The position numbers and the translations under genes are program-made. Positions 6,910 through 62,314 of a DNA stretch of 64,000 bases are shown here, piece by piece; positions within the stretch are counted from its first letter, which is position 1, and each line of letters starts with the position of its first letter. This DNA is from Astropecten irregularis (taxonomy: Eukaryota > Echinodermata > Asteroidea > Paxillosida > Astropectinidae), in NCBI GenBank assembly GCA_963971285.1, contig OZ020257.1:16692602-16756601 (forward strand), given 5' to 3'. The notes beneath the pieces were generated by a model. That model was not told the DNA's origin and made no database searches. It worked only from the letters and a program-made list of their open reading frames with translations.

Positions 6910-7414
6910 TGAAAGAAAAAAAGGGGGAAAAAGAAAGGAATTGTCATTGGGTTTGAAGCACACATGCAGGAATCTCTTTTGCAGTGCACTAAAAATTCCT
7001 GAAAATTCATAATAGCCCTGATAAGCCCATTAATATTATTATAAATTCGCATAGTAAAACTGCAATTAATTTTAACTGCATACCAATAATCAAACCGACC
7101 TTCCGGAATGTAAAAAATTCCACAAGATGTATCGGTGCATTCTTTAGTGGCATAAGTCCACTATTAAATTATGATGTCTGAACTCAACTATAAACAAACT
7201 GATCCCAGACTCCAGTTTAATAATATGAGACAATATCAGAGATGGAATTTTGAAGGAGACTTTGGGGATAGTTTGGGTTAAAGATGCCTGTGTTAAATGT
7301 GTACTCTCTTTGGTTTTAAACCTTGATAATTTTCCAGAATTACTAATTCTGAGTGTATGATGTATGACACACACAGACCCCTAAAATAAAGATGAACTAA
7401 TGGGAAATTTTGTA

Positions 7415-7562
7415 ATTTCATATCTTTGTTTTTTGTCCAAGAAATGCAGATTCATGGTCAGAAATGTCACAAAGATACAGTAACAGTCATCTGTGAAATT
7501 TCCAGTCCCATACGGTGCCCGCTTTTTGATAAAGAAAAAAAAAAACCCCAAAACCGGCCATG
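7415..7562 (+). mobile_element. MITE family A, partial copy
   Basis: Retains GAAATGCAGATTCATGG, ACAGTAACAGTCATCTGTG and CCCATACGGTGCCCGC. The right half is absent; family I sequence follows. Confidence 0.65.
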
Positions 7563-10204: not shown

Positions 10205-10575
10205 TTAAAGGTAGTATCATACTTTGGTAATTAGAAACCAAAACAAGAAATGTTCACAGATTTACGTATAACTTACAGGGTATAAAGATGGTGGTGGTAG
10301 AAACATACCGTTAAAATTGTTCCGCCTGAAATGGTGTATTTGTCCAGAAATTAGTAACACAACGACCGAAAATCTTTCTGATCTTTTAAAAGATCAAAAA
10401 TAAAAGACTTAAGAAATACTGATGGCTGTTTTTCACAGTTTTCTCAAAAAGTGGGCACCGTATGGGACTGAAATTTTCACAGATGACTGTTGCTGTATCT
10501 GTCTTGATATTTTTGCCCATGAATTTGTATTTCTTTGATAAAAACCAAAGTATGATACTATGATATTACCTTTAA
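10205..10575 (-). mobile_element. MITE family A, full-length copy
   Basis: Family A is a roughly 370 bp element with terminal inverted repeats TTAAAGGTAGTATCATAC and GTATGATA-CTACCTTTAA plus an internal palindrome TCTTTTAAAAGATC. The plus orientation reads AAATGCAGATTCATGGGCA near its left end. This copy is inverted and almost complete, with a small internal duplication next to its right terminus. No transposase is encoded, so it is non-autonomous. Confidence 0.85.
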
Positions 10576-11510
10576 AGCAGTCCCCACCCCAGGGGCGGCC
10601 ACTACCAGAAAACGCAGTCTAGGCAATTTGAGGGCTGAAAGTTCAGCCACAGGGCAAGTGCTAGCCTACATGCACGGTAACAAAAGCTAAATCTAAGGCT
10701 TTTAGAGGATCCAATTTTAAGGCAATTTGCAGCCAAACCACATATCTCTAAAAGAGAACACCGGTAATTCCACTGGGAAAAAATGACTCAGCTGGTAGTC
10801 GGCGTGACAATAATAAATAAATCAGAAATCAATCGGTAACCATCCAATTAAAGATTTATGTTTTTTTAATGCCAAGCCCTGTAGGTTACGTTATACACTT
10901 GGGAATAAAGGCCTACATCATTAATCAGGAGCCTATTCTATAAATAGAATTCCTCCAAAGGTAACAAATTATATATGCATTCACGTACATCAGACTTTCC
11001 ATCCTGTACAAGATGTTATGATGTTTTAAGCAATTTGGTGAAATGGGATAATCCGGATTACTAAATCACGTCGCTAATTCGGATAATTGGATCAGGCTCA
11101 CTAATCCTATACTCCCCTAATTCCCTGATATGAGCAATTATAAATTATGATCGTCCCTTTTGAAAGATGATTCAAGCTATCAATCAATAAAAATTACAGT
11201 TCCTTGACCTGACGACTAGCTAGTGTGCTGGGTTAATATTCCAGTCCCAAGGATGGCGGGCCTAAGCCGTAGACTTGTCCGATAAAATGAATACTGTGAT
11301 TAGGCTACGCTCTGGATGTACAGCAATTTAGTGCAGGCAGGTGCCTGAACTAGATGCCCTAAGAAGGCTCAATACCGGCCAGATCAACAAGATAAGAACT
11401 GAATGAAAAATAGGCCAAGAGTTTGGATTCAAAACACAAAACGAAAGGAGAACACTGACCATCGTTCAGTGACAGGCTTTTTAATAGAAGAAGTGAGGCT
11501 TGCTGGTCCA

Positions 11511-12524: not shown

Positions 12525-12830
12525 AGCAATTTGGGACATCAAGATGGATAGAAATTGTGAACAGTGATGGGTACTTTGGGTAGATTGGGTTTGACTGGAA
12601 ATAGCCAGTGGGTATAAGGCTCTACCAGAGCAAGTGCCTCATACAGTGAGTCATACGAACATGTAGGCTCCTTGATTGTGGGCCAGCAATCCCAAGATCA
12701 TTGGTGAGTTTTTAGCAATAAGTGAAAGTGCAATCTGCTAAGTAATACTTCCCCTGTGCAAACAGTTCAAATGGTTCTCACACACTGCTTTCATTCACTG
12801 AACTGAATGTATTGAAATTAAACTTACAGT

Positions 12831-13051
12831 AATCATCAAATAACCACAAGGGAAACTGACTGAATTTTAAGTCACTGAAAAGTAAACAAAGAAAAATTGA
12901 CTGGAGTGGGATTCGAACTGCCGACCTCCTGAATACCGTACAGGCTCTCTACCAACTGAGCTATCCAGCCCTACATGTATGTTGGTGGTGTCCCTAATAC
13001 TATAGTCAATTACATGTATCTTTGTTCGTTTGGCAGTCAGAAGACATGAAA
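12831..13051 (-). mobile_element. tRNA-derived SINE, near full length
   Basis: On the minus strand: a leader with TTCTGACTGCCAAACGAAC, a tRNA-like region with A box TAGCTCAGTTGG and B box GTTCGAATCC, then the tail TCAATTTTTCTTTGT to CCTTGTGGTTATTTGATGAT. About 221 bp. It shares leader, head and tail with the copy at 59945-60160. Confidence 0.82.
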
Positions 13052-16716: not shown

Positions 16717-17386
16717 AAGATCTGCTCTGAAAATTGAAGAAATAACATGTTCCTCTTTCTTTTCTTTTGACGAATGTCACTTTTACTAGGTTTTTCAGGA
16801 CCCAGGGCGAGTTGGCACGCTTTTAAGGTGACAAACAACAGTGACAGACTGTATAAGGGAGGGTTAGCGGCAGAGATGTCAGTACTGTTTGCATGATAAC
16901 AATTTCCCTACAATATGACAAGCCTTTGGGCAGATACATGAAGCGGCCAGCCCATAGTAGATAGATAGAGTACTGCTCACAGCAAATACCGAGTCTCGAT
17001 CTAATATGGTCTGATCCTATTATCAGTTCCCTACTGATGATGGCAACATGATCATCTTCGAGGGACTCTGAATTCTGTTGACTCCATGATGTGAGCATTT
17101 GTACAAAGGATCAAGTGCAAGGAGGATTGCAAGTTCTTAATGATGCAAGAGCACAACACCTGTGCAGCTTTTGGTTCTGAAGTGTCGTCACTTACACGTA
17201 CAAGGATGGACGGACGTGACTGGAGTAGGCTTGCTATACACACTCTTGGCCAATTGCAACAAAAATTGGAATATGATGACATTGCAAACTGGTGGCCTAC
17301 AAATTGTGCATATAATTATGTTTGACCATTGCAGAATCCCGGGGGTCAAGTTCAAATTTTTCTTTGTTAACCTTTGGATTTAAAAT

Positions 17387-17428
17387 TACTCCAGTCAGTT
17401 TCCCCTTGTGGTTATTTGATGATTGTAC
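17387..17428 (+). mobile_element. SINE tail fragment
   Basis: CCAGTCAGTTTCCCC followed by TTGTGGTTATTTGATGATT is the 3' tail of the SINE family without its head. Confidence 0.6.
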
Positions 17429-17884
17429 AATTCTTGGTCAACTTAAATGAGGGTGAGCTTGGTAACCGTACAATTTGTTCAAGTGTAGTAGAAGGTCAGC
17501 TACATTCTTCAATTGATTCAAAGTATGGCATCAACCGATGTTAGAATAACTCTAGCTATCAAAGCAAGTAAACTACATGTAAAGGGCTCAAAATATCTAC
17601 TTGACCTTGGACCATGTCTTGTGATTTTAGTGTCGGTCTAGTAAAGTGTGTACTGCACTAGTCCGGCTGGCCAGTGATATTGTTTTCCTTGCACAATTAA
17701 AATGTAAAATGGCGCCTCAATTAAAAAATTTTGACACAATATTGCATGTAATTATAGTTTTCCAATATAGGGCCCTACATGAATGCCACAAGTCTAGTGG
17801 AAAAAGGTTTCAGGTCTGGTAAAATGCTTAAATTACTAGACCTGCTGTCCAGTGGTTTTTTTTTCACCAAATTTGAGCCCTGAT

Positions 17885-17966
17885 CGAAACTGCAAGTGAG
17901 CTACATGTATGCCTACGTAAGTGTACATCATTACGTAGGCATACATGTAGCTCACTTGCAGTTTCG
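17885..17966. repeat. Perfect 36-bp inverted repeat with 10-base loop
   Basis: The arms 17885-17920 and 17931-17966 are exact reverse complements (left arm starts CGAAACTGCAAGTGAG and ends GCCTACGTAA) around GTGTACATCA. The transcript would form a mismatch-free hairpin. Confidence 0.95.
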
Positions 17967-18473: not shown

Positions 18474-19070
18474 ATACCCGGATAAAAACTCCCAGCACTA
18501 GCTGAATCTACTTATAATACAAATGAAAAAAAAACTCAACATTTTTCTGAAATCGGAAGTTGGGCAATTGGAATAGTTTCCGTCAAGGCGACTCTGCATG
18601 AAATGAATCAACTACGCCAAGTACCCACACTTTGACTATCGGGATAGCTTTAAAACCCGGCTGACGGTGATAACATGCAACGGACGGACGGGGACGTGTG
18701 CCATGGAGACAAGCAAGGAATGATACCCCTGCACAGCTCCTACACCCTTTCAACTTCAATCATACATTCACTTGGTAACATTGATTCCTCCCGACCCCCC
18801 AGCCCCGTGGCAGGCCGGCAGGTGTATGTTTCAAAGCCTGAAATATCAATCTTGGCATACAAGTCCCAGACTCCCTCGGTACCGAATTAGTCGTCATATC
18901 CGATATCTCTACTAGGCCAAACATCCTTGAATCTAGAAAAAATAAAATTAACACAACAACAACAAAAACAAGGGAGGAGGCGTTCTCCAATTGACAAAAA
19001 AAAGGGGAAGGCTCGTAAACAGCCAGACCAAAAACAAGGACATAATTGGTCAATATCAACGATTGCCTGG

Positions 19071-19312
19071 GGCCAATTTCACAGCCCTGCTAAGCACAAA
19101 AATGTGCGAACGATCAAATTTATGTCTTAATAAAAACAGGATTAACAACCAAATTTCAAGTGTTGTGTATCGCTTGTGATTCTTCTTTAGCTGTTGTTTC
19201 CTGACCACGAATATCAAATAGAATATTTTAATCTGGTTTGGTTTTATTGAGCAAGACGTTTTTATGCTAAGCAATTTTTTTGGTGCTTAACAGCTCCAAG
19301 ATGAAATTGGCC
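19071..19312 (-). mobile_element. Foldback MITE family D
   Basis: Family D is about 240 bp with termini GGCCAATTTCAYAGAGCTGC and subterminal TTAGCACAAAAAT blocks in inverted orientation. This copy is inverted relative to the other two and more diverged. Confidence 0.78.
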
Positions 19313-20346
19313 CTTGGCCACACAAGATGACATTATTGAGTCAATGTTATGAAGGCCACATTCTTCAAGAACCTTATAGTCAACTCTATGGAATTACTGT
19401 AATAATAAGCATAGGCCTATGGATTTAAAGACAAGAGAGAAATAAAAATCCCAGACTGGTATGCAAGGCAGGCTCTTTGATTCCATGTGTCATAACAAAC
19501 ACCATGAGATGAGCAAGAGGTCAAAGGTCAACTGACATATTGGATTAAGAGCCTTATCATCGGGGAAATATTCCTTTTTTGTAGAGCCTGCAGGCAAATA
19601 TGTATACAAGTCCTGCATGGACTACATGGTACATAGACTTGTACTGTATTGCATTTTTAATGCACCTCTGTGCATGACATGCATATGAATGTACACGTGG
19701 AGCATTCATTTATCAGTATTTCTTCTTTCTTTAAATTTAATTGATTTTAATGAGTCCTGAATCAAACCAAGAGCATTCAACCTCCGCGAGTAATTTTGAC
19801 TTCAATTAAATGCATGCACACATATGGCCTACATGGTTTATATGTTAGGTAGAGAAATTCAGATAGCAGGGAGGACCAACATAGATTTATAAAACATTTT
19901 TAAAGCATTTTCTGAATTATCACAATGATGATTAAAACAAACAAACAATTAAATTAGCAAACAAATAAACAAATTAAAACACCCAAACAAACAATCCAAG
20001 TATCCAACAGCAAAAACAAACAAACAGACAAAACAATTCCCTCAATTAATTTGTGAACTGTCGCGTCTATCTGCTGACTGCTCAACTCACCCAGATTCAA
20101 GTTTCAAATCAACCTTGGGAACTCTAGGAAACAGGCAATAAATCGTTCACGTGTAAATCGACCTTTTCCTGAAAAGCGGAAGAGACTAGACACATGAACA
20201 GGAAACTTTTAATGTAAGTTTATCGTCTTTTACTGGCCCAAGGTCCACAATGCGCCCGGGTTTCATTAATTACTTTGCTTCATCAGGGCGAGATCTAGAT
20301 AGACCATAGACCAATGCCAATGGATGCATACAAACAGTACAAGTAC

Positions 20347-20692
20347 TTAAAGGTATAGTACATGATTGGTAACATACCCAAACAGAAATGTTTACAGATT
20401 TACGTGTAACTTTCAGGATATGAAGATGGTGCTGGTATCAACATACCGTTAAAATATTTCCACCTGAAATGCTGTATTTATCCAGAAATTAGTCAAACAA
20501 AGACTGAAAACAGTTTTGATCTCGGGGTAAGATCAAAACCATTCTTTATGTTTTATTGGAAAACATTGAGTTGGGTTTTCGGTATTTTCTCGTGACTCAG
20601 ATGTCCGATTGAGCTCAAATTTTCACATGTTTGATCAGACAAAGTGTGAGTGCTGTTCTGTGACCTTTATCAATCATGTATCATACCTTTAA
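20347..20692 (-). mobile_element. MITE family A, divergent subfamily
   Basis: About 346 bp. Termini are TTAAAGGTATAGTACATGAT and ATCATGTATCATACCTTTAA. The middle shares the CCGTTAAAATATTTCCACCTG segment type with family A but reads GATCTCGGGGTAAGATC at the centre. It belongs with the fragment at 24278-24522. Confidence 0.75.
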
Positions 20693-20926: not shown

Positions 20927-21089
20927 TTAAAGGTAGTATCATACTTTGGTAGCATTGTGAAATAATGTGGCCGTTTTTCACTGTTTTTTTAAAAGGTGGA
21001 CACTGTATGGGACTGAAATTTTCATAGATGACTGTTACTGCATCTTCCTTGATATTTTTGCCCATGACCAAAGTATGAATTATCTTTAA
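20927..21089 (-). mobile_element. MITE family A, internally deleted copy nested in family F element
   Basis: Only 163 bp. Both family A termini are present (TTAAAGGTAGTATCATAC and ACCAAAGTATGAATTATCTT) but half of the interior is missing. It follows directly on the truncated family F copy at 20695-20926, so it may have inserted into it. Confidence 0.75.
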
Positions 21090-23556: not shown

Positions 23557-23803
23557 GTCCAATTTTTATTTATAGAGCTGCTTAGCACACAAAAAAAATT
23601 ATCTTAGCACAAAAATAGCTTGCCCAATAAAACAAACCACCATTGAAAACTCCATTTGATATTCATGGTCAGCGAACAACAGCCAAATAACAATTGAAAG
23701 TGATACACAACACACAGACATTTTGTTGTTAATGCTATTTTTACTAAAGACAAAAATGTCATGCTTAGCGAATTTTTGTGCTAAGCAGCTCTATGAAATT
23801 GGC
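23557..23803 (+). mobile_element. Foldback MITE family D
   Basis: Ends TAGAGCTGCTTAGCACA and TGTGCTAAGCAGCTCTATG. The interior keeps GGTCAGCGAACAACAGCC and AGTGATACACAACACA. Confidence 0.82.
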
Positions 23804-24277
23804 TCCTGGCTATGAACTGATGCACATGCATGTAAGCAAACTCATTACCGTGGGGATTTTGCCAGCAAAATGGCCCCAAAATAGCCTCTGTTAATTCAAT
23901 ATCTACACCACACATGTACAGTACCTCAACCATATACATGTGTAGCTCCATGCTCAACGGTTATGAAAAATTTGATGATATTTTGAAGTCGGATTTTGAA
24001 ATCATTTGCTCCAATTATAGTTGTTTACATGAATCATGTGATGTGACATTGTTGACCAAATGTATTTTCTGTCATTGTTTAGTCAGAGGGGAGTGGCGAT
24101 ATTTTAGACGGCCTGTTAAATCTGCGATTTAATCCTTTGGAAACTTTTCTTCCTCGTGATAATCCAGATTTAATTACTGTACCTCATTCTCAACGTGGCT
24201 AAAATTTAGAGACTTCTAATGACTAATGTGCATAGTACTTAAATAACTGTACATAATGTTCAACGTGTTCACGTGGT

Positions 24278-24522
24278 GAAGGTCACAGAACAGCACTCAC
24301 AATTTGTCTAATCTTGTAATCCACCATGTGCATGAAATAATAAAGCTGTGAAAATTTGAGCTAAGCCGCAAGCCAGACATCTGAGTCACGAGAAAATAGC
24401 GAAAACCCGACTCAATTTTTCTTATATTTAACAAAAAAGAATGGTTTTGATCTTACCCCGCGATCAAAACTGTTTTCGGTCTTTGTTTTACTAATTTCTG
24501 GATAAATACACCATTTCAGGAA
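24278..24522 (+). mobile_element. MITE family A, divergent subfamily, partial
   Basis: Matches the reverse complement of the 20347-20692 copy from GGTCACAGAACAGCACTCAC through GATCTTACCCCG to ACACCATTTCAGG. It lacks recognisable ends. Confidence 0.65.
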
Positions 24523-25549: not shown

Positions 25550-25791
25550 TGCTATTTTTATCCAGAAAAAAAGTAAAACCAGTGAGGCAGTGACTAAAAT
25601 TATTTTTGATCTTTTAAAGAACAAAAATAAAAGAGAAAAGACTTAAAAATACTTTGACCGTTTTTCACTATTTCTCAAAAAGTGGGCACCGTATGGGACT
25701 GAAATTTTCACACATGTATCTTCCCTGATATTTGTGCCCATGAATCTGTATTTTTTTTTGGACAAAAACCAAAGTATGATATTACTTTTAA
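25550..25791 (-). mobile_element. MITE family A, truncated at one end
   Basis: Begins inside the element at a TTTTTATCCAGAAA segment and runs through AGTGGGCACCGTATGGGACT to the terminus ACCAAAGTATGATATTAC. Confidence 0.7.
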
Positions 25792-28014: not shown

Positions 28015-28385
28015 TTAAAAGGTAATATCATACTTTGGTTGTCAAAGAAATGCAGACATGTGCAAAAATACAGTAGATACAGGAAGATACAGTAATGAGG
28101 AAAAATAATCATTTCCAGTCCCATACTGTGCCGACTTTTTGAGAAAAAAAAAACCTCCCACGGAATCTTTTCACCATTTTTTTAGATCTTATAAATATAG
28201 ATCAAAAATATGTTCACTCATTGCTTTTAAATACTTATTTCTTGATAAATACAACATTTCAGGCGGAACAATTTGAAAGGTTCACTATGTTTCTACCATC
28301 AGCATTTTTATACCCTGTAAGTTATAGGTAAATCTGTAAAAATTTCCCTTTTGGTTTTGTTACCAAAGTATGAAACTACCTTTAA
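28015..28385 (+). mobile_element. MITE family A, full-length copy
   Basis: Both termini are present (TTAAAAGGTAATATCATAC and GTATGAAACTACCTTTAA), about 371 bp, with AAATGCAGACATG near the left end and GGCGGAACAATTT in the right half. Confidence 0.82.
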
Positions 28386-35127: not shown

Positions 35128-35493
35128 TTAAAGGTAGTAACATACATTGGTTTTTGTCAAATACAGATTCATGGGCAAAAATATCAAGGACGATACAGTG
35201 ACAGTCGTCTGTGAAAATTTCAGTCCCATACAGAGCCCACTTAAATACTAGAGAAAATCATGAAAAACTGCCACAGTATTTCTTAAGTCTTTTCTCTTTT
35301 ATTTTTGACCTTTTAAAAGATCAAAAAGATTTTTGGTCATTGTTTTACTAATTTCAGGATAAATACACCATTTCAGATGGAACAATTTTAACGGTATATT
35401 TCTACCACCACCATCTTCATACCCTGTAAGTTATAGGTAAATCTGTGAACATTTCTGTTTTGGTGTCTTACCAAAGTATGATACTACCTTTAA
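35128..35493 (+). mobile_element. MITE family A, full-length copy
   Basis: About 366 bp with termini TTAAAGGTAGTAACATAC and GTATGATACTACCTTTAA and the central palindrome CTTTTAAAAGATC. It is one of the best preserved copies in the window. Confidence 0.87.
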
Positions 35494-45341: not shown

Positions 45342-46058
45342 TTAAAGGTAATATCATACTTTGGTTTTTGTCGGAGAAATGCAGATTCATGGGCAAAAAT
45401 ATCAATGAAGATATACAATAACTAGTCATCTGTGAAAATTTCAGCCCCATACGGTGCCCACTTTTTGAGAAAACAGTGAAAACGGCCACAGTTATGGAGA
45501 ATAATAATATGCAACTTATTCGTACCGGATGGGTACGAAATTGTTATGTCTCACACTACAACGTGCACTGTGTCCATCAGTCTAATCATTAGCTTCGCTC
45601 TGTTGAGCTGCCAAAATCATTTCCATGTACACACAAGGCAAAAGCAAGGGAATTTATCCTATGGTAACCTAAAAAGTACAATACACACTGGCATAAGAAC
45701 AGCTTAAAACGACGTCACATTCATTAGCCAATCAGAGTAGGGAAAGTTAGAAATATATTTTACCACAGACTATAATGGCCAATCACGTTTATTTATTTCC
45801 AGGCTCTTCCAACGCCAGCAGGGTTGTAATGTTTCTGGATTAAGGTTAAACTTTCTGTTCATCAGTATAATAATTAGCTTCGCTCTCTCGAGCAAAACAA
45901 AGTTTAGTTTTCAATTTTACATTGCAATACACGAACATCGTTTGAGGTAAAACTTGGGGGAAAAAAGCCTGAAATTGTGTTCAGTGCTGTGAGGTAAATC
46001 TGTGAAAATTTCTGTTTCGGTATGCTACCAAAGTATGATATAGTACAGGTACCTTTAA
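45342..46058 (+). mobile_element. MITE family A, copy split by about 480 bp of unrelated sequence
   Basis: The left half (45342-45497) ends at CGGCCACAG and the right terminus (about 45988-46058) resumes at GAGGTAAATCTGTG. The intervening sequence is unrelated to the family and carries two similar segments with TTAGCTTCGCTCT at about 45592 and 45871. Part of the original middle of the element is missing. Confidence 0.65.
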
Positions 46059-46483
46059 CTCTCGCCAAGATAATTAACTTACACAGAGGAAGTGTGCTGA
46101 ATGCACTCACTGCATGCTCATGATGTTATAAGGTGGATAAAGCTTTCCGCTGTTCTAATTTGGATTTACAAATGAATGCGATTTTCAAATCTATTTTTTC
46201 ATGCCGAATAGACCGGGGGGAATCTAATTTCAGCTTCCGCTCAGTGGAGTTTCATAGAAGCCGAAATACAAGGCGATGTCGTGAGATGTACCAAATGTAC
46301 TATGAAGAAAATAATAAGATTATTATTTCTCCATAGATGTACTGAGCGACAACTGTGTGGTAGACAGTATCTCTCTACCAAATCAATTCTTGAGCCTTAG
46401 GGGATTTTGCTCTTCTTTCTTGCAAATTAATTGATGTACGGTCTCCTTATTTAACCTGCAGCTCTAGCTGCAGCCAAAGTGTT

Positions 46484-46865
46484 TCAAAGGTAATATCATA
46501 CTTTGGCATGAGTTTGGCTTTTGTCAAAGAAATGCAGATTCATAGGTAACTAAAAAATATCAACAAAGATATATACACTAAAACTCATCTGTGAAATTCC
46601 CAGTCGGTGCCGACTTATAGAAAATAGTGAAAAACGCCAATGGAATTCCTTTAATATTTTCACCGATTTTTTTTTTTTCTTTTAAAGATCAAAATTATTT
46701 TCGGTAGTTGCTTTTACTAATTTCTTGATAAGTACAGCATTTCAGGCGGAACAATTTTAACGGTATGTTTCTATCAGCACTATCTTTATACCCTGTGAGT
46801 TATAATTATGTGAATCTGTGAACATTTCTGTTTTGGTTTCCTATACCAAAGTATGATATAATACT
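46484..46865 (+). mobile_element. MITE family A, full-length copy with degraded ends
   Basis: Starts CAAAGGTAATATCATACT and ends ACCAAAGTATGATATAATAC. The interior retains AAATGCAGATTCATAGG, a T-rich middle and CAGGCGGAACAATTTTAACG. Confidence 0.8.
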
Positions 46866-49088
46866 TGCCATGCTCTTGCTACAAATTTCACAGAAAAAGA
46901 GGGAAGCTTTGATAAAAATTTAGAAATGATCATCACGGATGAGGGATGCAATTGACAATGTTCTGCAACTCAACGAAAATAAAATTAACAATTCAGTGAA
47001 CATTACCTTAAACAAAAGACTTCATAATTATGCATAGTCCACACAGGTTCGTAACTCTTGTTCATAAAAATGGCCTCCGTGCATTTAATGGAAACTTCTA
47101 TACAATGTACATGTATACTGCATTTCTTTGCAAAATACGTTCTGGCATTACTGACAATGTTTCCATTATTTAATTATCATTTGGTGCCCTAATCTTCTCA
47201 AATTTAAAGGGATGCGTAGACCATCTGTGGGCTCGGGAATTAATTATCCTGGCTAAATGTGGATTTAAGGGATAAATTGCTAAGATTTTTCTTTTTAAGA
47301 AAAAATTATCAAATTTCAATTGAGATAATCACAGGGAAAAAATAAAACAATTATTGTTCCCGTCAGTCGTTCAGGCGAAAACAACTCTTTAACGATGATT
47401 AAATAGATTTGCTTTTGCTTGTGATGGTAGTTGCGGGGGATGGAGGGGGTGGGACCAATTTCGAAAAATAAATCGTTGGTAAGGTTTTAGTAATCATTTC
47501 CAAAGTTAAATAACTGAAGTTAAATACATGTATTCAGTTTTCTTTTCTATATTTATTTGGGGAAAGCACAGGCGGTCCCCGGTATACAGAAAGAGGACTC
47601 CCTCGGCGCTGGAATATCAAATGTTTAATGTACACAATGGTTCGTGAAATTCATGAGCGATTTGGGATTTTAAAAGTTTTATTAGTTCCACCCCATGGGT
47701 TTTTATTTTGATTCACAACCCTGATAACAACACTGCAGAACAATGTCTTTTGTTTACGACCCTCAAGATGCCACGAAAGTAGTGTGAGCTAGTAAGCTCC
47801 TCATCCCCAAGCAGGGAAATTAGGGTAAACTCTGTAAAAAGGTGAAAGAAATAGACCTAGTCTGTTCTAAAAAATCATGTCTGATTTTGAGGTTTCATGG
47901 TGCTCGTAAACATGTGGTTATCTGGATATCAAAGTTGGATGGCACTCGCGGGACTCCGTACATTAATGGGTATGGTCCTGTTCCATTCTACTTCAATTTC
48001 TGGGTGTGGGGTGCAGGTTGTCTAACCTGCTCTAAATTCCTAATATTCTTCATACTGCATGCAAGTTTGTAGACGAATCCATACAGGGTTTAAAGGCGGC
48101 CATTGGCAGGGGGTCACCCCACGGACCCATTCCATAACTTGTCCCAAGTGATTGAATACAAGCCAAAATCATACACCTATGGGATGGCCCCCAATCGTGG
48201 TGGCTCCCATTAAAGTCTGGTCGGATTTGCCTGCAGATTTGAAGAATCACAGTTTTGTTAACAGTGTCCATCATTAATTTGATCCAATCTCAAAATTTCC
48301 AAAAACAATAGACACCAGATCTTCTCTCATCAATTTTAATCCATTTTGAACAATCTGTGGCTCAAGACAAAGTAAAGCTTTCAGTTACAAGTTAACAAAC
48401 ACTGCTGTGTAAAATTTACGCCTATAGATACAAGTTTGATTTTATTTTCTTACATATCCTAAATTTGCAAATTTTAGAATATTTCAGGAAAACCGAAAGA
48501 GAATGTTATAGTGAACTTGCATACACCAAATAAAGAAGCACTAAATAAAAAACATGTCTCATGTTCACATGCTGTTTGCAGAAATTCATTTTGTAAAATG
48601 CAGGTATGCCAAAAAAAAAAAAAAATGAAGAAAACAAATTGGCTTCTAATTTCCTTTGCAAAAAATATACATCTTCTGTTCTGGAGTATCCTCCATTTTC
48701 ACCAATTAGACCAGTGTTAGCGTGAAGAAATTCTCATTCACTTCGTTATACTTGTATAAGCTTATGTGAACTAAAAATGAACTGCCACAATAGTGTTTAT
48801 CAAATTTCGATGCAAGATTTGCCATCGAGGGATAAATATAAAAACAATGTAAAATTTGTTAGCAAGTGATAACTTTTGAAAAGAATAAACAATTACTGAG
48901 GTTTATCTCTTATGTATATAATAAGGTTTTGCTTCTACAGTTGGACCTGGTTTTAAAAGAGAGCACTTTGCTATATTTTAACATAATTAGTAGGACTGAA
49001 AAATATCCCAAACCCTCAGCACTTTCATCAGTGGTTATTAGTGAATCTACCAGTATTCAATATGTAGTAGACACGGTAAGCAAACAGC

Positions 49089-49324
49089 GGCCAATTTCAC
49101 AGAGCTGCTTAGCACAATAAATTGCTTAGCACAAAAATAGCTTGCCCAATAAAACAAAACACAATTGAAAATTCCATTTGGTATTCATGGTCAGCGAACA
49201 ACAGCCAAAGAACAATTGCAAGTGATATACAACACATGGAAATTTGGATGTTAATCCTGTTTTTACTAAGACAGAAATGTCATGCTTAGCAAATTTTTGT
49301 GCTAAGCAGCTCTATGAAATTGGC
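49089..49324 (+). mobile_element. Foldback MITE family D, best preserved copy
   Basis: Bounded by GGCCAATTTCACAGAGCTGC and GCAGCTCTATGAAATTGGCC, 236 bp, lying 0.8 kb downstream of the RPRD2 stop. Confidence 0.85.
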
Positions 49325-50148
49325 CTCAGCTTTGGCAAAAATTAATACTGAACTTTTTACTGAAGGTAGATGTTGATGAATACTAAATCAAAGTGGGAGA
49401 GCTTGTACTAAGCTAAAAATGATCAACACCTCCCTGCAATCCCAGACAAAGGATCCCTTAAGGATTCAAATGTAAGGAGGAAGTTGAGGAACACGCATGA
49501 GTTGTTATTACATTATTAACTATGGGTACAACCTTCTCCCTCCAATTACAAAGCTATACATACATGTACATTGTTTCCCTTCAAATATAAGCTCAACATT
49601 TTTGAAGTGTCATTTGGTATTCAAATCAAAATAGCCAGACATTTTGTTCGTTTCTTAACGAACCACAATCTTGGGTCAGTCCAGAAGGTAGGTCCATTTG
49701 AGTGGGCCTGTCATCATATAAAGCACGAACATGTAAATAGAGTCAACAATTACTCAACTGTTCAACTCCCTTTGCAGTAAACAAAAAGTACCTCAGACAC
49801 ATATCAACTTGTTTGAGGGACAGAAAAAAATTAGGAATTTATGGTAACAGTTTACTTTTTTTGTCAGCCAGTGTTCTAAAAACTAAACAAAAAGTAGTTC
49901 CTTAGAACTGTTTTCTTTTTCCTGTAAGGACATCATAATGGTTTCGTTACTGTTTTCAAAACTAGCCAATCAACTCCAAAACCATGCTGGCCGTGCGTGT
50001 TTGGATTTGTCAATTTGTAAAAATAAAATCGAAATAAATGTAAATATGTACCAGAATCTGACGGTACAATGTCAGAAAACAAAATGATAAAGAAAAACAA
50101 AATTGCATCATATTATACCGAAAAAGAAACAGGTTGCTTGAGTTATAT

Positions 50149-53100
50149 CTAATATCTGTAAGGGGGTCGATGACCCCATGCCGGTGGCCCAGGACGCTTG
50201 TGTGTTGGTCCTTCCCAGTATTGTGATGCCTCCCTCCTAGGTGGCATGTAATCACCGGCACTGGCACGTCGACCCGTTTCCATCTGACCACCCACGGTGG
50301 AGATGGGCACCCCTCGGGGCTGCAAATCACCCGTCAGCGCACTGAGTTCCTTCTCGATGAGCTGCTGGGTGCTCCTGAAGTCTGCCCGGTCGTACGCCGG
50401 GCCTCGGTCCAGTTCCTGTTGGCGGGCTTGGCCGACCTCTTGGCGATGGTTCCGACTGAAGTCCGGCAGGTGAGTACGTTCGAGGTGGGCGCGTTCTAGG
50501 TCGTAGTTTCGTTGTGGCTTGTTGTATCCCCTGCCCCTGCCGATGTCGTAGTCTCTAACTACGCTGGCATTACCTCGGGGAAAGGTGTGGGCATAGCGCT
50601 CCCTCCCTGTGTCGTAATGCTCCTCGGGACTCATGTACACATCCCTTTTGGGGAGGTCCAAGTGAAACCTTTCTTGAGGTAAGGGACGTTTCCTTTCCAG
50701 TGTCTCAATGGGCCTGCTATCTGTATAGTCAAATGTGGGACGTACGGGTGGTTCGCTGTACCTGACTGATGCTCCTAGTGTCCTGGATCCATAGTCTGGC
50801 TGCTCCCGCTCCCACATATTCTGAGCAGCATTTAATTGACCGACGACGGGAATACTTCTTTCCCTTATCATACCAGGGCTTGTGCTCAGGACGGGTATTG
50901 GTGAAGGGGGCTGGGAGGCTTCTGCTGGTGGTCTTGACCGAGGTTCTAAGGGAGAGGCAGGGGGTGAAGGCCGAGGACCTGTCGGTGCAGCATCTGATGC
51001 CAGCTCAACATGAGCAGCCAGATCGTTGATGTCCTTATCATCTGCTGGTGATCCAGCGGCCAATTGCTGTCCTGAACCTGCTTGACTGAACGCTCCTCCA
51101 GCACGTCTGGCATTTGGGGGTGGAGGCCCTGGGGGAGGGGGTGGTACACGGACGGGCATTCTAGAGCCAAGATTTCCAGATTGATGTGGGGGAATAGCAT
51201 CCTGGGGAGAGCCTACAGGTAGGCGAGCTCTGCTAGGAGGCGGAGGACCACTAGGAGGTGGAGTGATTGGCGGACCAATTTGGGGTGAAGATGGCTCAGT
51301 CTGCATAGGGATAGGACCACTTAGAGCTTGTGAAGGACCACTTAGTGAAGGACCACTAGGTGGGGGGCCACTTGGGGGTGGGGGTGGACCACTTGGGGGT
51401 GGGGGAGGACCACTTTGGGGTAGGGGAGGACCACTTGGGGGTGGGGGAGGACCACTTGGTGGTAGGGGAGGACCACTTGGGGGAGGGGGAGGACCACTTG
51501 GGGGTAGAGGAGGACCACTTGGAGGTGGGGGAGGACCACTCGGGGGAGGGGGAGGAACATTTGGAGGAGGACCACTTGGAGGATGGGGCAGACCGCTCGT
51601 TGGTGGTGGTCCAGCAGGTGGCATTGGTCTATGAATTTCTGTGCCAGCAACTTGCACTTCGGGGAGAGGTGGGAGTGCCATACTTGCACCGTCCATTAAT
51701 TCACCAGGTGGCAGGGGTGGAGGAGGAGGTGGCTCCAAAATGATGGAGGTGAGATTTGAAGGTTGCGGTCCAGGAGAGATATTGGGAGGGACTGATGACG
51801 GCGTTAACACCTGACGGACTTTTGTCTTGTTGTGCATCAGCCGAGCCATGAGAGAATTGGCTTGACCAGCATCTGAATTACCACCAGTTGCATCCGGTGG
51901 AGTATCAGGCGGTTCCGATGGAACTGAAGCAGCTGTCGTGGCAGAAGGGGTTACGGGGGGTGTCGTGTTCATTATTTGACACAAGGGAATCTTGCTGGGT
52001 TTGTGGTAAATGCCCGAGCCCTTGCTGAATGGAGGAGACGTTGAAGCGGGAACAGGATCAGAGTTTGAATCATCTTTGAAGCTGCTGACGAGAGCGCCGA
52101 CAGAAAAGGGCATTGCGGCTCGACCACTTGCATTGGCATGGTTCAACTTCTTGCTGCCCGGGGCATCCTGAGGCCCTGTTGGACTTGTCTTGGCATGAAC
52201 CTCAGTTGCTCCTGAATGCGTACCTTTCTTGAGGGCTGGTGTGGCATGAGGGACAGGATTTGAATTGGGCTCTTCCTTGAAACTACTCATGAGAGCACTG
52301 ACAGAAAACGGTACATCAGTTGGGCTGCCGGCACGGTTTGGCTTTTTGGGCAAATGTTGCTCATCCATGCTCCTGGTATCGGAATCTTCTACAGGTTTTA
52401 GAAACTTTGGTGAGAGGACAGAGTCAGCTGCTTTATCTCCATGATCGGTGTCCTTCGAGGGTTGTTCAGGCTCCTTTTGAGAAGCACTTTGGGTGAGCAA
52501 AGTCAGACTGCTTAGGAATGAAGAGGAAGGAGCTTTGCTGCCAGAGGACTGCCTGGAGCTTGTGATGATCTTCGTGAGAAACTCAATTGGGTTACTTGTG
52601 GCTTCCTTCAGAATAGAACTCTCTTCCTGGGAAGGTGGCGTGCTGCACTCATCTCGGAGAGGTGTGCCACCAGGCTTAGTGTTGTCAATCTTTTTTCGTT
52701 TGACTGATGGGAAATTTGACGTCTCCTTATCAAGAGTGCCTATTTGCTTGTTCTTTCCATACTGGACTGAAGCCTTGGGTTCAACCGGCTTTTGGATAGT
52801 AGCACTTGGTGTTGGGGACTGGAAACCTCCCGCCAAGGGGATGATGCACGAAGATTGGGGTTTCTTCTTCTTCTCCAACGGCATCTCCAGAAGATAGTCT
52901 ACCATTTCCGGGTCATATACGTCATCGTCATCGGGCGGCGACGGGGCCTGCTGGGATGGGGGCATGGGCGGAGCAGACATGTCAACAGGGGTGTAAAAAC
53001 CCGGAGCCTCGGAGGGATACGCATTCTCAAAGGGGTCATATTCATCTGGTGCACTCGAATTTTGAGGAGTAACCGGTGCTGGAACAGCTGGTGGAACAGT

Positions 53101-53462
53101 TATAATTGGGCTCACCTGCTGATCATAGGCCTTAGGAGAGGGTGTATAAGACGGTATGGACACTGGGGGTAGGTTGGAGGAACCTTTGGACCTGGCGTTC
53201 TTCGGAGAGTCAAAGAGTTTCACTGATGAGGGAAGTTTCGGGGCGTCATGCATCACTTGGAGCAGACGGTCCTTAATGGAGCCATAGCTTTCGTCCTTAG
53301 GTTCCTTGGAAACAGAGTTCAATGAGTCGCTCTGGGCTGCTGTACCAGATTCTGGTATCGGTTGGTAGTCCCTCATGGGGGAGTAATCGGTAGAGGGAGA
53401 CTGACTGGAGAAGGGCGAGTAATTTGGTCGAGCCTGGTTGAAAGCACTGCGAGACCCTGCCC
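50149..53462 (-). CDS. RPRD2: RPRD2 coding exon 10, large disordered C-terminal region
   Basis: A single 3.3 kb exon encoding residues about 361-1464, starting after acceptor TGTCAACAG with phase closing on exon 9 and ending at TAG 50149-50151. The open frame continues about 50 bases upstream into the intron, but that leader is not coding. The region is low complexity: rich in Ser, Pro and Lys, with two internal copies of a PFSVSALMSSFKEE/PFSVGALVSSFKDD motif about 95 residues apart, and a GTPLRDECSTPPSQEE stretch resembling human RPRD2 GTPVRDERSGTPTQDE. A proline tract of SGPPPPP-type units follows, then an Arg/Tyr/Asp-rich tail ending PPYRY (human PPRY). Such a tail is expected to be disordered and to mediate protein contacts; that part is inference. 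No polyadenylation signal is obvious in the 500 bases beyond the stop. Confidence 0.95.
51350..51600 (-). repeat. In-frame proline minisatellite in RPRD2 exon 10
   Basis: Roughly ten imperfect units of about 21 bases (plus-strand core GGACCACTTGGGGGTGGGGG) encode SGPPPPP / SGPPLPP heptapeptides. Because the unit is a multiple of three, length change would not shift the frame. The antisense strand is correspondingly open (Gly-rich) but this is a composition effect. Confidence 0.9.
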
Positions 53463-53750
53463 CTGTTGACAGCAAAAGAGAAACACACCAAGAGAAACGA
53501 AATGTTACCACATGCTACCCTTCAAGAAAGTTAAAACTAGCAGCACTCCTCAACTGCTACAGTACCCATCCAACACCACACCAAGGTTTAACGGTACTCA
53601 ACCCAGCAAATCTCTTTAAAAAAAAGGAGTTTAAACAGATCATGCATAAACTTTACCCAATAGTAATAGCTGATGCTAAGCCCAAATCAAACTTTATAAG
53701 AATTTATGTTCCAATCAAGTTCGCAAAAATGTTTGTAGATGATGTGTTAC

Positions 53751-59320: not shown

Positions 59321-59674
59321 CAGTATCATACTTTTGTATAAATGTTCACAGATTTATCAACCTACAGGGTATAAAGATGGTGCTGATTGAAATATGCCCT
59401 TTAAATTTTCCCGCCTGAAAAGCTGTTTTTATCAAGAAATTGGTCAGAGTAACGACCGAAAATCTTTTTGATCTTTTAAAACGGATCAAATATAAACTTT
59501 AGAGAAAAGACTTAAGAAATACTGTGGCTGTTTTTCACTGTTTTCTCAAAAAGTGGGCCCCGTATGGGAAGAAATTTTCACAGATGACTGTTACTATATC
59601 TGTCTTGATATTTTTGCCCATGAATCATATCTGTGATGATTACTTTCATAAAAACCAAAGTATGATACTTTTAC
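59321..59674 (-). mobile_element. MITE family A copy between RPRD2 and UTP15
   Basis: Inverted copy from CAGTATCATACTTTTG to ACCAAAGTATGATACTTTTA with the middle GATCTTTTAAAACGGATC. A second small fragment of the same family (TCTCAAAAAGTTAATGGGCA) lies at 59190-59260. Confidence 0.75.
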
Positions 59675-59682
59675 CAAATTTA

Positions 59683-59829
59683 TATTCATGAAATAACCAC
59701 AAGGGAAACTGACTGAGTTATTTTAAGTCATTGAAAAGTGAACAAAGAAAAATTGTCAATTTTTCTTTGTTCACTTTTCAATGACTTAAAATAACTCAGT
59801 CAGTTTCCCTTGTGGTTATTTCACGAATA
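59683..59829. repeat. Head-to-head SINE tails forming a 73-bp-arm palindrome
   Basis: Arms 59683-59755 and 59757-59829 are reverse complements with a single central base and one mismatch (CATG versus CACG). Each arm is the SINE tail from TTTTTCTTTGTTCAC to TGTGGTTATTTCA. There is essentially no loop. Confidence 0.93.
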
Positions 59830-59944
59830 TATTAATTAAAAAGCCGTATCCTCTTTGAGTGATCCCCCATGTGCCGTTCCCAGGTTGCAGCATTGTTGCG
59901 TGTATCATTGAAACGATCCCTGGGGTGTGGCGGTGTGTGCGTGG

Positions 59945-60515: not shown

Positions 60516-60608
60516 ATGGCGTCCGATTACAAGAAGGCAGTAATCAAAACTTTCCCACGTGGGGACACAGAAGTTTCCAAAGAAACAGAGTATTGGAAGA
60601 ATTTTGAG
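60516..60608 (+). CDS. UTP15: UTP15 coding exon 1
   Basis: UTP15 is a WD40 protein of the t-UTP (UTP-A) subcomplex of the small-subunit processome. It acts in the nucleolus in pre-18S rRNA processing and in rRNA transcription. This exon encodes MASDYKKAVIKTFPRGDTEV and SKETEYWKNFE, aligning with human [30 protein letters not shown]. The ATG sits in a good context (CAACATGG) and is the first in frame. Donor is GTTGGT, phase 0. Four complete exons and the first two bases of a fifth lie in the window, covering about 183 residues of a protein that is about 520 residues in human. Confidence 0.93.
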
Positions 60609-62221
60609 GTTGGTAATATAATGTGCTTTTAGGTGTGAAACTGTTGGTGCAGCCATAACAAAATATGGGAATTCTATGAATAAATAGTCATGCTAAGCTT
60701 GAGCTTCACGAACGCGATCCACGATCGACCATCGGAACACGTAACGTTACACTCGGTCGGTAACTTGTACGTACGTAGGCATGGGGTGCCAGTCAACTCG
60801 GTCCGTAACCAACTCGGTCCGAGTCAACTCGGTCCGTGACCAACTCGGTCCGAGACCAACTCGGTCCGAAGCCAACTCGGTCCGTGACTAACTCGGTCCG
60901 TGGCCAACTCGGTCCGAGGCCAACTCGGTCCGTGACCAACTCGGTCCGTATCCAACTCGGTCCGTGACCAACTCGGTCCCTATGGGAAAACGTACACAAA
61001 CAAGAATCCATGCAGTTTGCAGCAGCCGTGTACATGTACAACATGTAGGCTACTTGCATTAATGTTTTTTAATGTCATCATAACATAATATGTTTTGCTT
61101 GTGGCTGAAACCGTGAGGAAATAAATTATGCCTTATTATGTTGATACCATAATTATTTGATAAAATGGCACAATACAATTTTAATAAAAATATCAATTAA
61201 ATTATACACGAAGTCAAATTGCCTTGTGAAAACATGCTTTTTATGTTTAAATTAATAAATCAATTAATGAATAATAATGATGATTGTTTTGTGTTTTTGT
61301 TATTGATTTTTTAGCTTTGTTTTAATTAATCTGTGTATATACATAACATAATTTAATATAAGATTTATAAATGGCAGGTTGGCAAGGCACGACTTTTGAT
61401 GACAGAGTTTTTTGTTTGTTTTTTTTTTACTTTTTTTTCAGGCCCTATGGGCAGCACCTGCCAATGTATTTTTCATTCTTTTAAATGTTTTTTAGATAAT
61501 AAATGAATAAATAAATAAATAGGCCTAAATAAATAGTTAAATTCACGCAATTTGCAAGACTACGTACTCGTTTTCCTGCAACAAAATTACCAGACGTTTT
61601 TGCGTGCATTTTCCCATAGGGACCGAGTTGGTCACGGACCGAGTTGGTTACGGACCGAGTTGGCCTCGGACCGAGTTGGTTACGGACCGAGTTGGTCATG
61701 GACCGAGTTGGTTACGGACCGAGTTGGTCACGGACCGAGTTGACTCGGACCGAGTTGGTTACGGACCGAGTTGACCTGAAACCTAGGCATGGGGGTATGG
61801 CCTATGTGATTTTTGTGTGGTGTGTAATACTAGGTATTTTAGCCCTACTACTAGTACTACTACAATACTAGGCGATTGTGTAGTTTAAGCCTCATCGATT
61901 GTTTCAGTTTTTAAATAGCTTTTTCTGTTCTTAACACTTAACAGAACAGAAATTTAACTTTGCTTAGTTATTCAAAGTTAAGAATAAGAGGACACCACCA
62001 GCACCACAAATTTTGTTGAGTTAGACCTACTTAGAAGTGTTTTAAAAAATTTTTATTTCCTTGTATGAATAATTATCATGTGGCCTAAACTACACAATTG
62101 CCACTATAATGATGAGCTGGTAAATGTTAAATTTGTTTTACTTTAATACCTGGGCTGTTTGTATGTATTTTTCTCTGAATAACTTTTTTCTGTACTGCTT
62201 TCCTCCCTTTGTTATTACTAG
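60609..62221 (+). other. UTP15 intron 1, carrying a foldback transposon
   Basis: Between donor GTTGGT and acceptor TATTACTAG. It holds the 1 kb foldback element at 60787-61783. The remainder, 60609-60775 and 61795-62221, shows nothing recognisable. Confidence 0.85.
60787..61783. mobile_element. Foldback (TU-like) transposon with tandem-repeat inverted arms
   Basis: Two inverted arms (about 60792-60995 and 61605-61775) are each built from 15-16 bp tandem units with core CCAACTCGGTCCGT. There are eleven or twelve units on the left and about nine on the right, and both end internally in CCCTATGGGAAAA. They enclose an AT-rich core of about 600 bp without a protein-coding frame. The 11-base direct repeat TAGGCATGGGG at 60776-60786 and 61784-61794 flanks the element and looks like a target-site duplication. 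This architecture is that of Drosophila FB and sea urchin TU elements. Insertion is in UTP15 intron 1. The arms appear open for translation, but only as a result of the repeat. Confidence 0.85.
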
Positions 62222-62314
62222 TTTCCAGTGACAGTTAAGGAGTTTGGTGCTGTAACCTGCGTAGACTTCAACCCACAGAAACCTCACCAATTTGCCGTCA
62301 CAAGCTCGACAAGG
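62222..62314 (+). CDS. UTP15: UTP15 coding exon 2
   Basis: Acceptor TTATTACTAG, donor GTAAGC, phase 0 on both sides. Encodes FPVTVKEFGAVTCVDFNPQK and PHQFAVTSSTR, matching human TPVQIKEFGAVSKVDFSPQ and YAVTASSR. This is the start of the beta propeller. Confidence 0.95.

Follow-up and report, generated by a model that had tools for sequence, protein, structure and literature searches.

The window (the whole 64-kb stretch of DNA that we analyzed) contains the first exons of UTP15, a ribosome-assembly gene, and a long inverted repeat of about 1 kb lies wholly within the first intron of this gene (Table 1). Among entries of the Protein Data Bank, those that best match the peptide encoded by exons 1 to 3 are UTP15 (7ruo, E = 1.5e-36; 7mq8, E = 5.8e-36), which agrees with the location in UTP15 intron 1 that was given in a preliminary description of this DNA. 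Depending on how its left end is read, the element extends from 60785 or 60787 to 61783.

Table 1. Features of the element and of its host gene (positions within the window)
Feature	Positions	Strand	Remarks
UTP15 exon 1, coding part	60516-60612		
UTP15 intron 1, host of the element	60613-62228	+	exon structure and peptide match
Left direct repeat TAGGCATGGGG, read as target site duplication	60776-60786 (60776-60784 in the 9-bp reading)	+	
Left terminal motif	60785-60791	+	not part of the perfect inverted repeat; GGTGCCA if the duplication is 9 bp, TGCCA (from 60787) if it is 11 bp
Left arm	60792-60990	+	12 units of CAACTCGGTCCG plus linker, then box CCCTATGGGAAAA (60978-60990)
AT-rich middle domain, about 0.6 kb	60991-61608	.	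no credible Pfam family
Right arm	61609-61775	-	box CCCTATGGGAAAA at 61609-61621, then 10 units; all inverted relative to the left arm
Right terminal motif	61776-61783	-	GGTTTCAG read from outside
Right direct repeat TAGGCATGGGG	61784-61794	+	
UTP15 exon 2	62229-62314		

The window also contains other genes and repeats. A minus-strand frame at 175-1830 matches chondroitin N-acetylgalactosaminyltransferase (CHGN, E = 2.8e-150), and another at 42652-43515 matches Fringe (E = 4.2e-20) and the start of CHGN (E = 1.5e-12); judging from these matches, both frames probably belong to a single chondroitin synthase gene, as separate exons. The minus strand also has an open frame of 1121 codons at 50149-53514, which is without a Pfam match at E = 0.001 and includes a 21-bp tandem repeat (51368-51564). 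One dispersed repeat, about 360 bp long, occurs at 10205-10560, 35135-35493, 59340-59669, 46480-46858, and 28015-28385, with aligned pieces that are about 69-87% alike, and shorter pieces of it lie at 25588-25791, 45342-45492, 20343-20522, 24347-24520, 7412-7533, and 20959-21067. This repeat looks like a MITE, given that inverted ends (formed by AAAGGTAGTATCATACTTTGGT and a near complement of it) stand next to TTAA in the copy near 10205-10580. Another dispersed repeat, of about 240 bp, occurs at 19062-19312, 23574-23813, and 49089-49329 (78-90% alike); it has inverted ends around TGCTTAGCA in the copy at 49082-49332 and is likely to be another MITE. Finally, there is a near-perfect palindrome at 59681-59831 (arms of 75 nt that are 99% complementary and separated by 1 nt), whose arm has relatives at 12830-12901 and 17355-17432 and which could be either a MITE of the snap-back type or the product of an inverted duplication, and a perfect inverted repeat at 17885-17966 (36-nt arms and a 10-nt loop).

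The two arms of the element in UTP15 match each other over 173 nt without gaps (89% complementary), or over 178 nt at 89% and 160 nt at 92% if gaps are allowed. Both are tandem arrays: there are 12 units in the left arm (60794-60980) and 10 in the right arm (61619-61773, minus strand). Each unit consists of the core CAACTCGGTCCG followed by a linker of 4 bases, except that the linker of the second unit of each arm has 3. If the innermost unit of each arm is left out, then 18 of 20 units are 16 bp long and the other two are 15 bp; the 15-bp units are second from the outside in left and right arm alike. The arrays of 15-16 bp units that had been described earlier are thus real, and most of their units are 16 bp. 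The core is largely confined to the arms: with up to 2 mismatches, the arms contain 22 of its 24 matches in the window, while 100 shuffles contained a mean of 1.6 and a maximum of 5.

The innermost unit of either arm merges into a common box, CCCTATGGGAAAA, and further inward the two sides soon diverge. The box has just two exact copies in the window, one for each arm, at its inner end, as had been noticed before. (With up to 2 mismatches there are 4 copies, where 2.54 are expected and 25 of 100 shuffles reach that number, which is not significant.) The first bases of the box, CCCTATGGG, also occur a third time, within the middle domain (61443-61451). This makes three exact occurrences in the window as compared to 0.36 expected, and 1 of 100 shuffles reaches three.

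If the element is folded as RNA, it forms a long hairpin which is far more stable than its own shuffles (z = -39.7, 20 shuffles). This stability might suggest that the element is a regulatory RNA hairpin of the host, acting in the UTP15 pre-mRNA. However, this result is what any inverted repeat of such length would give; since the flanking duplication (see below) points to insertion instead, we consider a regulatory hairpin to be extremely unlikely.

The units vary in a structured way. Leaving aside both 15-bp units and the innermost unit of each arm, we counted departures from the commonest base at each position in the 18 whole 16-bp units: there are 2 among 216 core bases, versus 16 among 72 linker bases (Fisher p = 6e-9, which is descriptive only, as we chose the split between core and linker after seeing the units). 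The last base of the linker is C in 18 of 18 of these units, so a split of 13 + 3 fits as well as 12 + 4. A near-fixed core with a free linker is the pattern that would be expected of a row of protein-binding sites. Because the core is nearly fixed and the linker is variable, we regard the core as a candidate binding site for a transposase.

The order of the units also links the arms. Counted from the outside, the first three units of one arm match those of the other arm one by one, the single 15-bp unit among them, and just 21 of 20,000 permutations did as well. This ties the arms to each other beyond their merely having a unit in common. Across the whole arms, the order of the units is not significantly similar (the longest common subsequence is 5, which was reached by 2,262 of 20,000 permutations).

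An 11-base direct repeat flanks the element, as the preliminary description had reported. The repeat is exact. When we compared pairs of 20-base sequences, a shared word of at least 11 bases was found in 3 of 60,000 random draws from the window (draws less than 500 bases apart were skipped, yet counted within the 60,000) and equally in 3 of 60,000 cases when the real flanks were shuffled. For a shared word of at least 9 bases, the corresponding numbers were 51 and 61 of 60,000. The existence of such a repeat somewhere in 64 kb is unremarkable (if 1 mismatch is allowed, there are 3 matches, and 5 of 100 shuffles reach that), so the direct repeat is noteworthy because it is close to both arms. 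It does not abut them, however: the inverted repeat ends at 60792 and 61775, which is 5 bases short of the 11-bp repeat on the left and 8 bases short on the right.

Because of these intervening bases, the ends of the element can be placed in more than one way, and the duplication could be 9, 10, or 11 bp. If it is 9 bp, then the ends of the element are GGTGCCA-GTCAAC and GGTTTCAGGTCAAC, which have GGT and CA in common. If it is 11 bp, then the element starts with TGCCA on the left, which bears little resemblance to its other end. From this single copy, we favor the 9-bp duplication with GGT ends. A duplication of 14 bp (60773-60786 and 61781-61794, with a mismatch at the third base) would leave ends of 5 bases on both sides; we set it aside as less likely, since it lies outside of the 8-11 bp range of Mutator-like elements (MULEs).

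Could these features have arisen without a transposon, by the inverted duplication of a minisatellite, with the flanking repeat being due to chance or the footprint of a repair event? The arms do resemble minisatellite arrays, and we found no second copy of the element or of its middle domain elsewhere in the 64-kb window. On the other hand, an exact 11-bp repeat this near to both arms is unlikely to arise by chance (the 3 of 60,000 draws above), and a common 13-bp box terminates both arms, so we view this scenario as highly improbable.

The interior of the element does not appear to encode any protein. Its G+C content is 23.5-30% in five 200-bp windows within it. We compared all 24 stop-to-stop frames of at least 20 amino acids that overlap 60992-61608 to Pfam, with E values of up to 1, and found no credible family; in particular, none of the 24 frames matched a transposase family, so the element itself is without a recognizable MULE-type DDE transposase. 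(The four longest of these frames, with 91, 77, 76, and 68 amino acids, extend into the arrays. A match to UBA_RNF31 with E = 0.009 covers 9 residues of translated array and is below the curated cut-off, and we took it to be a chance hit.) The earlier view of the interior as about 600 bp of AT-rich, non-coding sequence is therefore upheld, and if the element is a transposon, then it follows that it would have been mobilized in trans. We also scanned viral contigs and contigs from prokaryotic genomes for exact patterns and found 0 matches; a transposon of animals is not expected in either.

The preliminary description also took the near-identity of the flanks as a sign of a fairly recent insertion, which our analysis does not support. 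With 0 differences in 11 bp, the divergence between the two copies is bounded only at about 24% (95% bound), or at 28% for 9 bp.

Inverted arms that are long and composed of short tandem repeats, an exact 11-bp direct repeat on either side, and a non-coding interior are the anatomy of a foldback transposon, as originally described. This is a real and well-formed foldback element, and an ordinary example of an already known kind. We propose, with a probability of roughly 0.75, that it is a non-autonomous foldback transposon that was most likely moved by a transposase of the Mutator superfamily, much like Muta1/Phantom and Tm1. MULEs have target site duplications of 8-11 bp, according to a study which groups Muta elements with Phantom and mentions MULEs from echinoderms (PMC6446971), and the duplication here is 9 to 11 bp, according to how the ends are drawn. 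We infer the superfamily from the length of the duplication and from the anatomy. What we claim is a "MULE-like" element rather than a proven MULE; the missing transposase is as expected for a non-autonomous copy.

The preliminary description instead suggested that the element may be a relative of the TU elements of sea urchins, whose outer arms are arrays of 15-bp tandem repeats. TU elements make 8-bp duplications. Their inverted arms are likewise long and contain short tandem repeats, and the two 15-bp units here have the TU unit length. Most units of this element are 16 bp, however, and its longest exact direct repeat is 11 bp, or 9 bp with GGT ends. Both differences would speak against the TU family, and we consider membership in it to be very unlikely.

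Another possibility is a foldback from a different superfamily, of the P/Galileo, KDZ/Zisupton, or hAT type, which would likewise be mobilized in trans. These groups make duplications of 7-8 bp (7 bp for Galileo, which belongs to the P superfamily), as opposed to 11 bp exactly or 9 bp here. Such an origin seems unlikely. In its favor, Galileo is described as also having long, internally repetitive arms (PMC3573991), and another study states that the repeats in Galileo arms hold additional transposase binding sites and that the foldback structure may arise independently in separate lineages (PMC4079207).

If the element is indeed a MULE-like foldback, then an autonomous relative elsewhere would provide the transposase, which would bind to the repeated core in both arms and would cut near the GGT termini. 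The element would have been inserted via a staggered cut of 9-11 bp. The number of units in each arm would drift through slippage or unequal exchange, and exchange between the arms could keep the outermost units alike.

We can also suggest, more tentatively and as something that is unlikely, that the element represents an undescribed family of MULE foldbacks in its host, with the quasi-palindromic core (CGG-T-CCG) as the binding site of the transposase. If so, and if the host is an echinoderm, then an autonomous copy could place TU-like elements in the Phantom/Muta group. The element adds one more well-formed case of the architecture of Muta1 and Tm1, inside an animal gene. Since the core is near-fixed while the linker varies, the core is a candidate transposase binding site that can be tested; apart from this candidate, our result amounts to routine repeat annotation.

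How similar is this element to the known foldbacks? One study states that foldback elements seem for the most part to belong to Mutator, although there are exceptions (PMC4079207). Another (PMC5225508) describes Muta1 of Aedes aegypti, a member of the Mutator superfamily that is termed a type2 Foldback, as having a subterminal tandem repeat of 12 bp in 9 copies, with spacers of 3-4 bp, a short terminal motif, and duplications of 8-9 bp; in yeast, its transposase mobilized the natural non-autonomous copies that were tested, despite their unequal arm lengths. There are also reports of subterminal repeats of 9-15 bp in 10 of the 12 long-arm MULE families considered there, and non-autonomous derivatives of Muta1 with variable numbers of repeats and varied interiors. 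We compared Muta1 to our element by anatomy and not by the letters of the sequence, and the likeness of a 12-bp core with a linker of 3-4 bp depends in part on the split that we chose. As described there, Muta1 differs in that it encodes a transposase, while we found none here; in that its 145-bp arm has 9 repeats, as compared to 12 and 10 units; and in that its terminal motif is an imperfect palindrome of 10 bp.

Tm1, a Mutator/Foldback element from Meloidogyne, shares the order of its parts with our element (PMC3169594): a duplication (mostly of 9 bp), an asymmetric 7-bp end, an array of units of about 14 bp, and an inner purine-rich box. As in our element, short terminal motifs lie outside of the inverted repeat, and the number of units varies and differs between the ends. 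The inner box is GGGAAAAGGGGA in Tm1 and CCCTATGGGAAAA here. The unit of Tm1 is different (CGATTCAGTATCCGC, versus CAACTCGGTCCG plus linker), and Tm1 has one further unit after the inner box, which we did not see here. Tetris from Drosophila virilis (PMC4079207) is an apparently non-autonomous foldback whose arms include tandem repeats and whose middle is non-coding; unlike our element, it has arms of up to 1,735 bp with internal TIR-220 repeats, and its duplications are 8-10 bp. Judging from anatomy, the Mutator-superfamily foldbacks Muta1 and Tm1 appear to be closer to the element in UTP15 than the TU elements are.
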